Below, in pieces: positions 11,434-17,856 of a stretch of DNA of 43,539 nucleotides. A model generated the notes under the pieces. That model searched no databases and was not told the DNA's origin. It saw only the letters and a list, made by a program, of their open reading frames with translations. Source of the DNA: Pseudobdellovibrionaceae bacterium (lineage in GTDB: Bacteria; Bdellovibrionota; Bdellovibrionia; Bdellovibrionales; JAMPXM01); contig JAMPXM010000004.1 of assembly GCA_023701225.1 (NCBI GenBank), positions 1 through 43,539 on the forward strand, in the 5' to 3' direction. The stretch's first letter is position 1; each line of letters opens with the position of its first letter. Made by a program: the position numbers and the translations under genes.

Positions 11434-11827
11434 AGCGTCTCAGAATTGCACCCGCAGTGCCAACCGGGCGACTCCTGCTGGTGACATAACCATATGATAT
11501 TATGTGGCTTTCTTTTTTTACCTTACCCATCTCAAAACCCTCCTCTGTCGACGCCTTCGACAGGCGAAATGCGAAAAACGGCGCGATCATCCCTCATCCC
11601 GTCAGACGTCCCTTCAGACGGCGGTCCTAAAAACGTTGAGCGCTCCAGCATTCTAACTAAGTTTATTTAAACTATCCCCGCCTCCCGAAATGGTGCGAAT
11701 TCTCATTGCGACATACCTCGCGTGCATCGACGTCCCTGTCCGAGACGTTGATTCCGCGAATTGTGGATTGATTGCTAAAGCGCGCATCAATAGGGGCCGA
11801 TGAATTAGGTTAGACGTGGAGCGTGTT
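11434..11827 (+). promoter_or_regulatory. Divergent intergenic region with a sigma-28-like promoter
   Basis: This gene-free stretch lies between the divergent repeat-protein and pilin genes and is richer in A+T than its surroundings (notably 11490-11520 and 11655-11672). At 11776-11779 is TAAA (in CTAAAG) and at 11796-11803 GCCGATGA, close to the sigma-28/FliA consensus TAAA-N15-GCCGATAA but with a 16-base spacer. It would start transcription near 11810, just upstream of the pilin start at 11828. A perfect seven-base inverted repeat CTGTCGA/TCGACAG lies at 11545-11563. On the minus strand GGAGGG sits before an ATG at 11530, but that frame runs across the next gene and looks like chance. Confidence 0.3.
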
Positions 11828-14800
11828 GTGGCAAACTCAAGAGTGTTCGGAACCGTACGTACTGGCGGATTCTCGATCGTCGAATTAATGATCGTCGTCG
11901 GCATTTCGAGCATCGTTCTGATGTCGATGACGACTGCGATCAGCATCATGTACTCCATGCAGGCACAGCAAACCCTGGTGTTCACCCGCAACGAAGTCGC
12001 CGCGCGAATTCGAATGCTAGCCTTGACTCCAGGAGCTTTGGAAAACTCGGCGATTCTCACCAATAACCTGGGGGAGAATGGCGTTTTGCCGGCCGTGGGT
12101 CCGGCGGTGCGCTTCACGCGCTTTGATCGATTGTTGAAATGTCATCCGTCGTTCACGGATCCCGCACAGACCGGTTGCGATCGGTCCGACATGGACGATC
12201 CGAATAGAGGAAATTTTGTTTATATTTCGGACCGAAATTCCACCGATCCGAATTTAGCTCTCGCCGGTGAGTATATTCACTATACGACAAAAGGAACGCG
12301 TTGCTCGCAGCAGGAGGCGCAAAATCCGGGTGATTGCCCAATTTTTGCCCGAGCGTGGGCGGAGCCGTACTGTTTGAATTTCGCGTCGACTTGCAACAAA
12401 GCAATGAGCATTTCGATTCGCTATTCTGTCGGTGTTCGTTCCGACTACGTGGGTTCGGTCCAACGTCTGCCAACGACTCTGGAGGCCGAGGTGATCGTGC
12501 CTCTCCAAAAGGGCATTCAGATCACGCGGGTCTTGGACCAAGACAACAATGCGCTGATCCCCAACGCTCGCGGCATCTATGGTGTTCAGAAGTATTACGG
12601 GTACCCGGACCAGTCCGGAAATCCGCGCGCCCTGCGATTCGAAGTTTTGGTCGGAAACCCGACCGGCTTGCAAAACATCCGCATGCAGATGCGTGCCTTG
12701 ACCGGGCCAAGTGCCAGTACGATAGATGACTTGACCGTGCCGCCCAGCTTGATGAGTGCAGATTGGACCGACGTTCCGAATCCCGACAACCTCTCTCAGC
12801 CGTGGGTGATCCCGTTGGTCAATGCCGCCCAGAACCAGCTGTTTAACTTCGGAACCGTCAACACGATCAAAGGGTTCATCATCGGTGCGCGCTACGATCT
12901 ACCGAACGACGATTTGAGCAAGCGCCGAAACCTTTACTATATGAATTCCACCGGTACAGGCTTGCTGCCGCCGTTGAATTTTAAGTCCGGCGTTTACCAG
13001 TTTCGTGTCGTCGCCCTGGACACCGGAAATAACATCGTTGAGTCGACCAACTATGCCACGGTCAGAATATTTCCGAGACCCCAAATGTATCTTTCGTCGA
13101 CGACTCCGATTCCGGCCACCATCTATCGGAACTGCGCAGCCGATGCATCGACACTGACCTTATCGATTCTCGCAGGAGATGACGAAGAGCTGGTGTCGAG
13201 TTCCTACGAGGTAACAGCAGCCGACGGAACCATCGTAGGGAGTGGGGAGACGACATTCTCAGGTACGACGGGCTCCTTTCAGTTGACCTTTGACAAAAGT
13301 AAGGGCGCAGGAACCTACCGAGTGAACCTGATCGCAAAGAATCGAAGCTCCGGCCGCATCGTCCGTGGCTTCGTGATTCCCGATACGACGACCTCCAACT
13401 TACCGGCCACGTTGGTTCTCAATGAAGTGGTTCCAATCACGGATTTGCTCAGCAATCCAACCAAGGTTCGCGTAGGTTCAACTGCGGTCGCGACTTACAG
13501 TTTGTCGACTGGAAACTGCTGCACGCAAGAGCCAAGAGCCCGCTGGACTTTTCCCAATGTACCTGAAGTCGGAAACGTTCCGATGTTGAGCGCCAGCTCG
13601 CCGAACGAAGAACTCACCTGCTCCAATTTGGCGAATGGAACGCGGTCTTGTTCTGTGAATACGACAATCAACGGACTGATCGAAGGACCAGCCTCGGCAG
13701 CTCCGGACATTTCCGTCGAGCTCAGCTTCAGCGGCTCTACAGAGGCGGCTTGCCAAGTTTCTAATTCAGCGACGGTGAAATACATTCCGGTGGTCCGCAT
13801 TCCTGGCATTCAGTTCGTTTCCTCCGAGTCGCTTTGGGCCTTTGCTCCCGCCGCGACAAGCACGTCTCTGAAGTCGATGGAGCGCATCGTGCGTATCCAA
13901 GCTGACTTTCCTCCTGCCGATGATCCGGTGACGGTCAGCATTCTGAAACCGGATTCTTCTCCCATTTGTTCCAACATTACGTTCGCGGCAGGGACGAGTG
14001 TAAATCCCGTGATCCAGACCTGCACGATTCCCTCTGGCTATCAAGGGGACATGATCCTGGCGCGAAGTTCGTCGAACATCAAAACGTCAGCGGACGCTCC
14101 AGCGCCCGGTTGGCGCGCGCTCCTTGTGGACGGAAAACTTCAACATCGCGTTTGTAACGCAAACATTGGGAGCTCCAGCGGACCCTTCCCGTCCGTGTAC
14201 ACGGTACCGACATCCCTTCCGATGCTCAATTCTCCCTGGGGTCTGGATGGCAGTGGAAACCAAAAGACGACAAACGACGCCGGGCGGTGGTTTGGAGGCG
14301 CGACACATTCACTCCGGTGCTGGGATTCATGGGATTATACCACGGGGACGACTCGATATACTTTCTATAATCCGAATAACAAGCAGGATGGAGCCTACAC
14401 GATTGACGCTTACAACGCGACGAGACCGAGTACGTGGTACGCCAACATAGATTTAATCATGAGTTTTCCGACTTTTTTCTTTCCTTACAATGGCGGTTCC
14501 GCCCCCGATTTCACCGCTCGCAACGTACCCTACATATTTGTCGTCATGAAAGGCGCCCCCGATGGAGCGGTCTATCGCTATACGCAAGGGACATCGTCTA
14601 GCGAGACCACCGCGATACCTTGGATGAACGTGACATCCAGTTATTGTAACGGCTCGACATCCATGACGAACACACAGATCTATACGAATCAGTTCCGAGG
14701 CTTCGATACGTCCACGCAGACGATGAAGGCTTTGAATTCGGCGAGAATGCCGAGAAATTTGATGAGCTCCTATTATTCTTATGCGTTCGTTTGTACGTAT

Positions 14801-14836
14801 GGCCGCTACAGTCCATTTGGCGAAGGCGCTCCATGA
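11828..14836 (+). CDS. Giant type IV prepilin-like (minor pilin) protein
   Basis: This 1002-aa protein starts with a class III (prepilin) signal: leader MANSRVFGTVRTGG, a cleavage site G|F, then FSIVELMIVVG with Glu at mature position 5, and a hydrophobic helix to about residue 40. The long remainder is rich in Ser/Thr/Gly/Asn and Cys and reads as beta-rich modules; the region near residues 420-560 resembles Ig-like folds (TYRVNLIAKN, ATLVLNE). Minor pilins are usually 150-300 residues, so the exposed part probably forms a tip structure such as an adhesin. GTG 11828 has GGAG six bases upstream; GTG 11816 is an alternative without one. It overlaps the next gene by ATGA. No pilus assembly genes lie nearby. 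The target and role are unknown. Confidence 0.8.
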   Translation: MANSRVFGTVRTGGFSIVELMIVVGISSIVLMSMTTAISIMYSMQAQQTLVFTRNEVAARIRMLALTPGALENSAILTNNLGENGVLPAVGPAVRFTRFDRLLKCHPSFTDPAQTGCDRSDMDDPNRGNFVYISDRNSTDPNLALAGEYIHYTTKGTRCSQQEAQNPGDCPIFARAWAEPYCLNFASTCNKAMSISIRYSVGVRSDYVGSVQRLPTTLEAEVIVPLQKGIQITRVLDQDNNALIPNARGIYGVQKYYGYPDQSGNPRALRFEVLVGNPTGLQNIRMQMRALTGPSASTIDDLTVPPSLMSADWTDVPNPDNLSQPWVIPLVNAAQNQLFNFGTVNTIKGFIIGARYDLPNDDLSKRRNLYYMNSTGTGLLPPLNFKSGVYQFRVVALDTGNNIVESTNYATVRIFPRPQMYLSSTTPIPATIYRNCAADASTLTLSILAGDDEELVSSSYEVTAADGTIVGSGETTFSGTTGSFQLTFDKSKGAGTYRVNLIAKNRSSGRIVRGFVIPDTTTSNLPATLVLNEVVPITDLLSNPTKVRVGSTAVATYSLSTGNCCTQEPRARWTFPNVPEVGNVPMLSASSPNEELTCSNLANGTRSCSVNTTINGLIEGPASAAPDISVELSFSGSTEAACQVSNSATVKYIPVVRIPGIQFVSSESLWAFAPAATSTSLKSMERIVRIQADFPPADDPVTVSILKPDSSPICSNITFAAGTSVNPVIQTCTIPSGYQGDMILARSSSNIKTSADAPAPGWRALLVDGKLQHRVCNANIGSSSGPFPSVYTVPTSLPMLNSPWGLDGSGNQKTTNDAGRWFGGATHSLRCWDSWDYTTGTTRYTFYNPNNKQDGAYTIDAYNATRPSTWYANIDLIMSFPTFFFPYNGGSAPDFTARNVPYIFVVMKGAPDGAVYRYTQGTSSSETTAIPWMNVTSSYCNGSTSMTNTQIYTNQFRGFDTSTQTMKALNSARMPRNLMSSYYSYAFVCTYGRYSPFGEGAP

Positions 14837-15495
14837 GCGGGCAGCGCGGAGCGGGCCTGATTCACTTGATCGTTGCCATCGCGGGCACGGCCTTGCTTCT
14901 TCAGTTGTTTTTGTTGGGCATGATGCAAAACGAAGTCGAGAACACGCGGCGCGATCAGGTGCGCGAGATGAAAATTCACCTCTTAAATTCGATGTTGGAC
15001 ACTATTCGTGACGAGATGACGTTACGCAATTCCAGAATCGACGTGAACTCCATTCTGATCGATTGCATGGGCGGAACTGGGACCTGCGACGAAAGGCAGC
15101 TGTACGATTTTGTGATTTATTCTCCCACTCCCCCGTATATTTTTAGCGGGCAATGGCCACCGGCGCCGCCCGGACTTAAAATATTGATGGGTGGATTCTC
15201 CGCCAACAAGCAATTTTATAACGTTGGCGGTGGACGCTGCATCGACGGAGCGACAGAGATGACGGCGTCTTGCCCATTGCAAGGTATCGGGCGCATTCGT
15301 CCCTTGTGCGGCGGAACTTTCGATACGCCCGCACTGAGCATACCTGGTGGCGCGGTCTGTGCGACGCCAGCGACCGGTTTTGAGGTTGTCATTGGTGTCG
15401 CGTCGTACTGGAACGGCACGATCACTTTCAATCCCGACACACTGGTGGGCGACCAAAGAGTGTTCCGTGTCAGCGCCCGCACTTTTCTGAATTAG
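14833..15495 (+). CDS. Prepilin-like protein lacking Glu5
   Basis: Exported pilin-like protein (220 aa). The start MSGQRG|AGLIHLIVAIAG has a prepilin-type cleavage site and hydrophobic helix, but the usual Glu at mature position 5 is His. Loss of Glu5 is known in GspK/PilX-type minor pilins that sit at or near the fibre tip. The C-terminal part contains several Cys residues. The ATG overlaps the giant pilin stop (ATGA, 14833-14836), so the two should be made together and may form one tip complex. This is an inference from gene order. The frame also opens at 14791, but that would put the prepilin site too far inside. Confidence 0.7.
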   Translation: MSGQRGAGLIHLIVAIAGTALLLQLFLLGMMQNEVENTRRDQVREMKIHLLNSMLDTIRDEMTLRNSRIDVNSILIDCMGGTGTCDERQLYDFVIYSPTPPYIFSGQWPPAPPGLKILMGGFSANKQFYNVGGGRCIDGATEMTASCPLQGIGRIRPLCGGTFDTPALSIPGGAVCATPATGFEVVIGVASYWNGTITFNPDTLVGDQRVFRVSARTFLN

Positions 15496-15696: not shown

Positions 15697-17856
15697 ATGA
15701 GGTCGTCCCCACTTCTGCGCTTCGCGCTCATTTCAATGTTCCTGTCCACTTCGGCACTCGCGGCTCAGAGGTCGCCATCGCCATCAATATCACGATCGCC
15801 TTCGGAAGCAACGACATGGCGATGGCTACGAAAGACAACCACACAAAACGCGACACAAGAGGCGGCACCAGATCTGGAAGGAGTCGTGCGTGTCGCTGCC
15901 TTTGACGTCGATGAAACTCTGCGTTTTAGCTCCGGCAAAAAGCACTATCCGGAATCCATCAATGAGCAAATTCTGCCCGACGACGTCGCTCCCCGAATCC
16001 GTCAGCTTCGCGAAGCTGGATATCTGATTGCACTATTCTCCAATCAGAGTGGCGCGGTCTTACCACGAGCCATCGAGGCACGCCGGCAGATACTCTTCGA
16101 CTTAGCAAATCGTCTCCACCAACAAAACGCACCGGTCGACTATGTCGATATCGCCGACGGTCTTCACCCGTGGCGGAGCAAGCCGAATCCCAGTATGTGG
16201 GATCGCTTGGAACAAGATCTCGCGGCCCAAGGGCTCCGCGTCGACCGGCTCGGCTCCTTCGTAGTCGGAGATGCGGGTTATCGAGAGACGGAACGAAACG
16301 CGACGAATGGAACCCCTGGACAAGATCATGACAACTTCGATCGCGAATTCGCTCGCGCCCGAGGTCTCGCCTTTTTCCATGCCGATTCCTTCTTTGCGCG
16401 TACGTCCACGCCTCCCGGCTTGGACCCCATGAAATGGCGTGCATGGCAGCAAGAAACCGCGCGTGTGACTCGCGCTGTTCTCGAAAAAATGCAGGAATTG
16501 GAAGCGGCCGTCGAGCGTGTCGCCCGATCCACTCAAGGCGTCTCACCACTCAATCCATCAGGAGACGCCAACGCACGCGCATTAGGCATCACACTCGATG
16601 ACCTGAACCGCGCTGAGTTTCGAAGTTTTTTGAAAATGACCGAACAGATCGAACAGGGCTTGGAGCTGATCGCGCGCTCGAACTCCAACGCCGAGGAGTT
16701 CGCCTGGATCCAATCTCTGCTGGAAAAATGCCGCATCTCCCGTGCGAGTTACATTCGAGTCGAAGAACTTTACGGAACACCAAAGGACAATCAAAGGTAC
16801 AACGCGTTCCGAGACGTGATTCTTTCCTACGACCGCCTGTTGAGCGCGATGGGCGCGACGGCGCAACCGACACCTGAGACCACGCTGTGGCGCCGTTTTC
16901 TCACCGCCGTTCAATTCCAAATCCGAAGTGTTTGGATGCTGACCAAGCTCGGTATGACCAGTATGGGTCCCCTTCTCCGGCTCTGGACGGGCATTTTCTT
17001 AACGCCAAACACAGGACCCGGCCATACTCCGATCACCACGGCAACGATCGACCTTTTTGAGCGATGGGGACGCGCCTCCGGGCTCAATGTCGACATCGAA
17101 GGTCGGGATCGAATTCCCAAAGCAGGACCTCGCGAAATCAATATCTACCTGCCGAACCACATCGACGCGAATTTGGATTTTTATGTCCTCTCCCAACTTG
17201 AGATGGAAAATTTCGTCACCGTTGGCGCTTTGAATATCAAAGGCACGGCGTTTTTCAGCTTCGCGACGTCCGGAATTTTCGAACCTTTATTGAAGCAGAT
17301 CATGAAAAACGATCACTTCTTTTTGGTCGGCCAGGGTGAACGCGTGCTCGACCGGATGGTGGAGGCGTTCCACAAGGGCAAATCACGTCACTTGTTGTTT
17401 TTCTCGCAAGGCATGGTCAGTCTTGGTTTTCAAGAAACGAATCCGGTACGCGACGGCCTGATGCGCATGATCGTGCGTCTGCGCGACGAAGGCTTCCGAG
17501 TGAACCTGGTGCCCGTCATCATGCCCGATAACAATGTCTATTTGTCGACCGGCGAGTCCCTACAGCTACGTTCCGACACAGGCCCGCAGATGAGTGCGTC
17601 TGTCGGCACAGTCATTACCGATGAGATGCTCACTCAGATCACAGCACAGGGACGCTTGGACGCGATTCCGGATTGGCTCCGTGCCCATTGGGTCACCGGT
17701 TTACGCAATGATCGCGACCGCGTCGCTGGCCTCCGGCGCTGGAGCCATGGAATGGAAGAGTTCGAGCGCCGCGGCTGGGTCCCCGCGAGTCAGGACGCGC
17801 CTCCGTCGCACCCGCGGAATTGCGAAACTCTGTTTGGGCCGACGCGTACGCGATAA
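15697..17856 (+). CDS. Exported fusion: PNKP-like HAD phosphatase + PlsC-like acyltransferase
   Basis: Two-domain protein (719 aa) with an N-terminal signal peptide (hydrophobic core residues about 6-20, site ALA|AQ near 22). Residues about 64-235 look like the HAD phosphatase of polynucleotide 3'-phosphatases: FDVDETL (Asp70, Asp72), FSNQSG (115-119), KPNPSMW (162-168), VVGDAGYRETER (Asp192) and the PNKP-like FDREFARARGLAFFHADSFF. A helical linker follows (about 245-430). Residues about 445-660 resemble lysophospholipid acyltransferases: NHIDANLD (487-494) at the NHx4D motif, with one extra residue before the Asp, and FFSQGM (568-573) where FPEGTR is expected, so Glu is replaced by Gln. Whether either domain is active is unclear. 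ATG 15697 has a poor Shine-Dalgarno. Confidence 0.75.
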   Translation: MRSSPLLRFALISMFLSTSALAAQRSPSPSISRSPSEATTWRWLRKTTTQNATQEAAPDLEGVVRVAAFDVDETLRFSSGKKHYPESINEQILPDDVAPRIRQLREAGYLIALFSNQSGAVLPRAIEARRQILFDLANRLHQQNAPVDYVDIADGLHPWRSKPNPSMWDRLEQDLAAQGLRVDRLGSFVVGDAGYRETERNATNGTPGQDHDNFDREFARARGLAFFHADSFFARTSTPPGLDPMKWRAWQQETARVTRAVLEKMQELEAAVERVARSTQGVSPLNPSGDANARALGITLDDLNRAEFRSFLKMTEQIEQGLELIARSNSNAEEFAWIQSLLEKCRISRASYIRVEELYGTPKDNQRYNAFRDVILSYDRLLSAMGATAQPTPETTLWRRFLTAVQFQIRSVWMLTKLGMTSMGPLLRLWTGIFLTPNTGPGHTPITTATIDLFERWGRASGLNVDIEGRDRIPKAGPREINIYLPNHIDANLDFYVLSQLEMENFVTVGALNIKGTAFFSFATSGIFEPLLKQIMKNDHFFLVGQGERVLDRMVEAFHKGKSRHLLFFSQGMVSLGFQETNPVRDGLMRMIVRLRDEGFRVNLVPVIMPDNNVYLSTGESLQLRSDTGPQMSASVGTVITDEMLTQITAQGRLDAIPDWLRAHWVTGLRNDRDRVAGLRRWSHGMEEFERRGWVPASQDAPPSHPRNCETLFGPTRTR

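Follow-up and report, generated by a model that had tools for sequence, protein, structure and literature searches.

The Pseudobdellovibrionaceae window (the whole stretch of 43,539 nucleotides analysed here) encodes, in a single uninterrupted reading frame on the forward strand (15697-17856; 719 aa), a protein in which a HAD phosphatase domain of the PNK3P type is joined to a domain with a predicted PlsC-like acyltransferase (AT) fold, behind a signal-peptide-like N-terminus. Each half appears, from comparison with its homologs, to represent an exported family that is found across Bdellovibrionota, with the combination of the two seen in the window only. We tentatively propose, at slightly below an even chance, that this protein is an exported phosphatase of nucleic-acid ends, probably 3' ends, with a PlsC-fold module that attaches it to a membrane or, with lower probability, transfers acyl groups.

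The features of the gene are collected in the table. The motifs that the first-pass annotation had read from the letters are present in the frame, namely, DVDET (residues 70-74), SNQSG (115-119), KPNP (162-165), GDAG (191-194) and FDREFA (214-219) in the HAD half; the altered acyltransferase motifs of the AT half read PNHIDANLD (486-494, H488-x5-D494) and FFSQG (568-572).

Table. Features of the gene encoding the PNK3P-AT fusion protein (nucleotide positions are those of the window)
Feature	Residues	Nucleotides	Strand	Evidence
Signal-peptide-like N-terminus, MRSSPLLRFALISMFLSTSALA	1-22	15697..15762	+	Hydrophobic stretch 7-16, ALA/A site
PNK3P-type HAD phosphatase domain	63-236	15883..16404	+	PF08645 E=1.2e-18; PDB PNKP E=2.1e-9
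Helical region, runs into the AT core	240-435	16414..17001	+	AlphaFold2 helices, partly low confidence
PlsC-like acyltransferase-fold core	445-719	17029..17853	+	Foldseek 5kym, profile A3, family PF01553 matches
Block I, PNHIDANLD; H488, D494, Hx5D	486-494	17152..17178	+	19-member alignment
Block II position, VGQG; Gln546 for the canonical Arg	544-547	17326..17337	+	19-member alignment
Block III, FFSQGMV; Gln571 for Glu, Val574 for the EGTR Arg	568-574	17398..17418	+	19-member alignment
Block IV, VPV; P606	605-607	17509..17517	+	19-member alignment

The N-terminus of the window protein resembles a Sec signal peptide, with a hydrophobic stretch followed by a cleavage-like site. This call was made by eye and from hydropathy, together with the leaders across both families: a hydrophobic leader is present in 29 of the 30 proteins examined from the two families, the window protein included, and on all 13 members of the HAD family. 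From these leaders, we infer that the protein is likely to be exported, as had been predicted at first pass.

The PNKP-type identity of the HAD domain, originally proposed from short motifs, is borne out by database searches. The PF08645 (PNK3P) profile of Pfam matches residues 65-233 over its full length with a score of 67.7 bits (cut-off 22; E=1.2e-18), and the best sequence match among solved structures is PNKP (PDB 3zvl, E=2.1e-9). The profile for DNA 3'-phosphatase (TIGR01664) gives 55.2 bits, below its curated cut-off of 107.65, and that for bifunctional PNKP (TIGR01663) gives 50 bits against 502.8, covering the phosphatase part alone; no 5'-kinase domain is present in the window protein, the C-terminal half of which is PlsC-like instead. 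GmhB and histidinol phosphatase were rejected as candidates (15.6 against 178 bits and 21.3 against 84.15 bits, respectively), and the zinc-loop cysteines of GmhB are missing; the only cysteines in the protein are C345 and C709. A cytoplasmic HAD/PlsC protein of the SerB type was rejected on the basis of the Pfam and TIGR profiles, which place the HAD domain in the PNK3P type. In the full-length AlphaFold2 model, the HAD part is below useful confidence.

A profile built from the window HAD domain and four relatives and searched against 369 Bdellovibrionota genomes (E<=1e-20) identified the family in 13 of these, window included. The catalytic set D70, D72, S115, K162 and D192 is invariant in all 13 aligned members, as are R160 of the RKP-like motif and the DR.FA residues. 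In 10 genomes, the domain stands alone, in proteins of ~240-280 aa whose leader resembles either a signal peptide or that of a lipoprotein. In two others, it shares a chain with a DNase I-like EEP domain, also behind a leader: EEP precedes HAD in G198 (L110:6024-8240; PF19580, E=3.9e-24) and follows it in G301 (L111:1493-3583; PF03372, E=2.8e-6). That this association recurs in two opposite orders speaks for a functional connection with the breakdown of nucleic acids; however, lipid and inositol-phosphate phosphatases are also found among EEP domains, so the fusions are no proof of a nucleic acid substrate. The window HAD domain forms a long branch, with 26-34% identity to its exported relatives over ~210 columns; for both the HAD half and the AT half, long branches leave the placement of the window sequence in the trees unsure. 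Overall, the sequence data favor a HAD half that would act as an exported phosphatase in connection with the breakdown of nucleic acids. Literature searches returned no account of a PNK3P protein that is exported.

The C-terminal half of the window protein itself has no match in Pfam, whereas PF01553 matches 5 of 9 proteins of its family (best E=1.6e-7). With residues 280-719 modeled by AlphaFold2 (pLDDT 63, pTM 0.56), Foldseek retrieves PlsC of Thermotoga maritima as the top match in the PDB (5kym_B; E=4.9e-5, probability 1.00, TM-score to target 0.47), followed by LpxM and then GPAT1. The family profile A3 gives 473 bits against the window protein, itself a member of that profile, and BLAST similarity to the family starts at residues 283-338, such that the helical region is common to the AT family from approximately residue 290-338 onward. 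The PlsC-like fold suggested at first pass is thus backed by the match of the model to 5kym and by the PF01553 matches of the relatives.

The acyltransferase motifs are conserved unevenly. In block I, the His is present in 18 and the Asp in all 19 of the aligned AT members, and the two are separated by five residues in every one (Hx5D). The additional residue within HxxxxD is accordingly real but is a property of the family rather than a local oddity, and a local insertion degrading Hx4D was rejected. Of the 19 members, 8 retain the block II Arg, which is replaced by Q546 in the window, a loss in addition to those noted at first pass; block III has Glu in 14 and Gln in 4 of the 19, such that the Glu-to-Gln change of the FPEGTR motif noted in the window (Q571) is present but recurs elsewhere in the family. 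The Arg of EGTR survives in a single member (V574 in the window), and the block IV Pro is found in 18 of 19, including P606 of the window. Mammalian LPAAT-alpha is strongly inhibited when the block II Arg is mutated or when Asp or Gln takes the place of the block III Glu, and the EGTR Arg of T. maritima PlsC is positioned to bind the phosphate of lysophosphatidate (LPA) (PMC6688108). Standard use of LPA is thus unlikely for the AT family and more so for the window copy, in which all three positions are changed; a functional LPA acyltransferase was rejected on comparison of NHx5D, Q546 and SQGMV with the canonical NHx4D, motif II Arg and EGTR, and the window module is probably not an enzyme of this kind.

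Nevertheless, the conserved H488/D494 pair argues against a dead domain and would be compatible with a different acyl transfer, such as that of tafazzin, an analogy only, which needs neither CoA nor ACP (PMC4412953). One could imagine a nucleic-acid phosphatase combined with an active transacylase that shifts acyl chains between phospholipids without CoA, the His/Asp pair being sufficient. The near-invariance of this pair next to variable blocks II and III fits such an activity, but tafazzin has an Hx4D pair rather than Hx5D, the block III Glu-to-Gln change inhibits LPAAT-alpha, and any acyl transfer by the module is itself hypothetical; we regard this combination as unlikely.

BLAST and profile searches detected the AT family in 20 of the 369 Bdellovibrionota genomes, where the module is found either alone with a leader or behind varied enzyme partners. 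It follows an MGDG_synth/GT28 glycosyltransferase in proteins of ~1200 aa, a CTP_transf_like nucleotidyltransferase in G190, and a lipoprotein-like part without an assigned domain in G368. The GT28-AT proteins carry a leader (L021:4297-7860, L022:6019-9612, L023:6923-10531, L096:4260-7904 and others) and contain, between the glycosyltransferase and the AT module, a papain-like stretch with an H...NC pattern recognized by eye. Their genes have GH1 and ceramidase-like neighbors, with an additional UDPGP-like one in L021, all with leaders. An exported glycosyltransferase is odd, given that a nucleotide sugar should be needed. At L089:4823-7504, a hydrophobic N-terminal segment is followed by CTP_transf_like and AT, and a second similar stretch seems to come after the first; at L086:3957-6035, a lipoprotein-like protein has an N-terminal half of ~330 aa without an assigned domain and then AT. 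A single Cys near the C-terminus (C709 in the window, nucleotides 17821-17823) is kept in most members of the AT family despite export. Literature searches yielded no description of this family.

These partners bear on the alternative that the fusion is a lipid enzyme working on the outer face of the inner membrane. The HAD domain would dephosphorylate a lipid, such as phosphatidate or lysophosphatidate, which the AT module would then acylate, a scheme that has been suggested for the PlsC/HAD fusions of actinobacteria. Lipid or head-group chemistry would suit MGDG_synth/GT28 and CTP_transf_like as well as the ceramidase-like and GH1 genes adjoining the GT-AT genes, and a rhodococcal PlsC/HAD fusion has been proposed to be bifunctional (PMC4850399). 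Given, however, that the HAD domain is of the PNK3P type, with exported relatives joined to nuclease-like EEP domains, and that blocks II and III have lost the residues by which LPA acyltransferases bind the phosphate acceptor, we consider this alternative improbable.

The PNK3P-AT fusion itself was found in no other of the 369 Bdellovibrionota genomes by BLAST and profile searches, which answers the question, raised at first pass, of whether the same fusion occurs elsewhere in these genomes. Searches of genome contigs with the window protein, in a scan reaching close relatives only, and of plasmids (tblastn) likewise identified none. The fusion is known from this single draft genome (3.1 Mb, 83% complete), and in a genome of the same genus (G001) the gene is missing at the matching place, in line with an assembly chimera or a recent accidental gene fusion without joint function. 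However, the frame of 719 codons is unbroken, the G+C content is alike in the two halves (0.564 and 0.558), the signal peptide and linker are coherent, and the AT homology begins midway along the 43.5-kb contig, within the helical region. Judging from the frame and base composition, the halves do not look like separate genes put together by mistake, the outcome that had been named at first pass as fatal to the fusion; an assembly error is unlikely, and we assign this explanation as a whole a very low probability. Upstream of the fusion gene, the window contains two overlapping genes with prepilin-like N-termini (11816-15495), which G001 retains side by side (63% and 69% identity) without the fusion gene next to them; downstream lies a convergent LysR gene. 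This arrangement led us to reject an operon with known partners. There is no nuclease gene neighboring the fusion gene.

To return to the preferred reading, a nucleic-acid-end phosphatase held at a membrane, the signal peptide would direct export, and D70 of the HAD domain would become the phospho-aspartate while D72 serves as the acid/base, in keeping with the established mechanism of HAD enzymes; the phosphate released would probably come from nucleic-acid ends. Phosphate would be removed outside the cytoplasm, within nucleic-acid scavenging by the Bdellovibrionota cell. The C-terminal module would keep the phosphatase bound to a lipid surface or might act on lipids in some other manner; less likely, it would shift acyl groups from lipid to lipid, using an altered acceptor. 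To our knowledge, there are no periplasmic acyl donors other than lipids. Many 3'-exonucleases are hindered by 3'-phosphate ends. An end phosphatase would thus fit a pathway such as that of Bdellovibrio, in which secreted nucleases degrade prey DNA (PMC7925074).

The existence of exported PNK3P phosphatases joined to nuclease-like domains suggests extracytoplasmic processing of nucleic-acid ends, by which exonucleases could complete digestion and phosphate would be freed. For the exported PlsC-like family with its changing enzyme partners, no counterpart was found in the literature searched; the family makes lipid chemistry or docking on the outer faces of membranes testable in Bdellovibrionota. 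A broader and rather doubtful scenario is that, in Bdellovibrionota, a group of exported PlsC-like modules brings different enzymes that use phosphate or nucleotides (a glycosyltransferase, a nucleotidyltransferase and a nucleic-acid-end phosphatase) to extracytoplasmic membranes, possibly those of the prey, with the module still moving acyl chains independently of acyl-CoA.

Among the known systems, the window protein shares with PNKP and DNA 3'-phosphatase (PF08645, TIGR01664; HAD-IIIA) the DxDxT, SNQ, RKP-like, GD and DR.FA motifs but is apparently exported, lacks the kinase, scores under the TIGR01664 cut-off and is joined to an AT module. With PlsC, the 1-acyl-glycerol-3-phosphate acyltransferase (PF01553), it has in common the predicted fold, the His and Asp of block I and the Pro of block IV, whereas it differs in having Hx5D instead of Hx4D, in the loss of the block II Arg and of the block III Glu and Arg, and in its apparent export. 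The actinobacterial PlsC/HAD fusions (Rv2483c type) likewise combine a HAD domain and an acyltransferase fold in one chain. Their HAD domain, however, is of the SerB type, and the contrast drawn at first pass holds: the HAD domain of the window is PNK3P-type, the protein is apparently exported, and its AT module belongs to another subfamily. Tafazzin is comparable, by analogy only, as a PlsC-superfamily protein, independence of CoA and ACP being its own feature; unlike the window protein, it has Hx4D, is eukaryotic and lacks a phosphatase. The exported GT28/MGDG_synth-AT proteins of Bdellovibrionota contain the same AT family and are, like the window protein, apparently exported, but their N-terminal half consists of a glycosyltransferase and the papain-like stretch, and they reach ~1200 aa in total.
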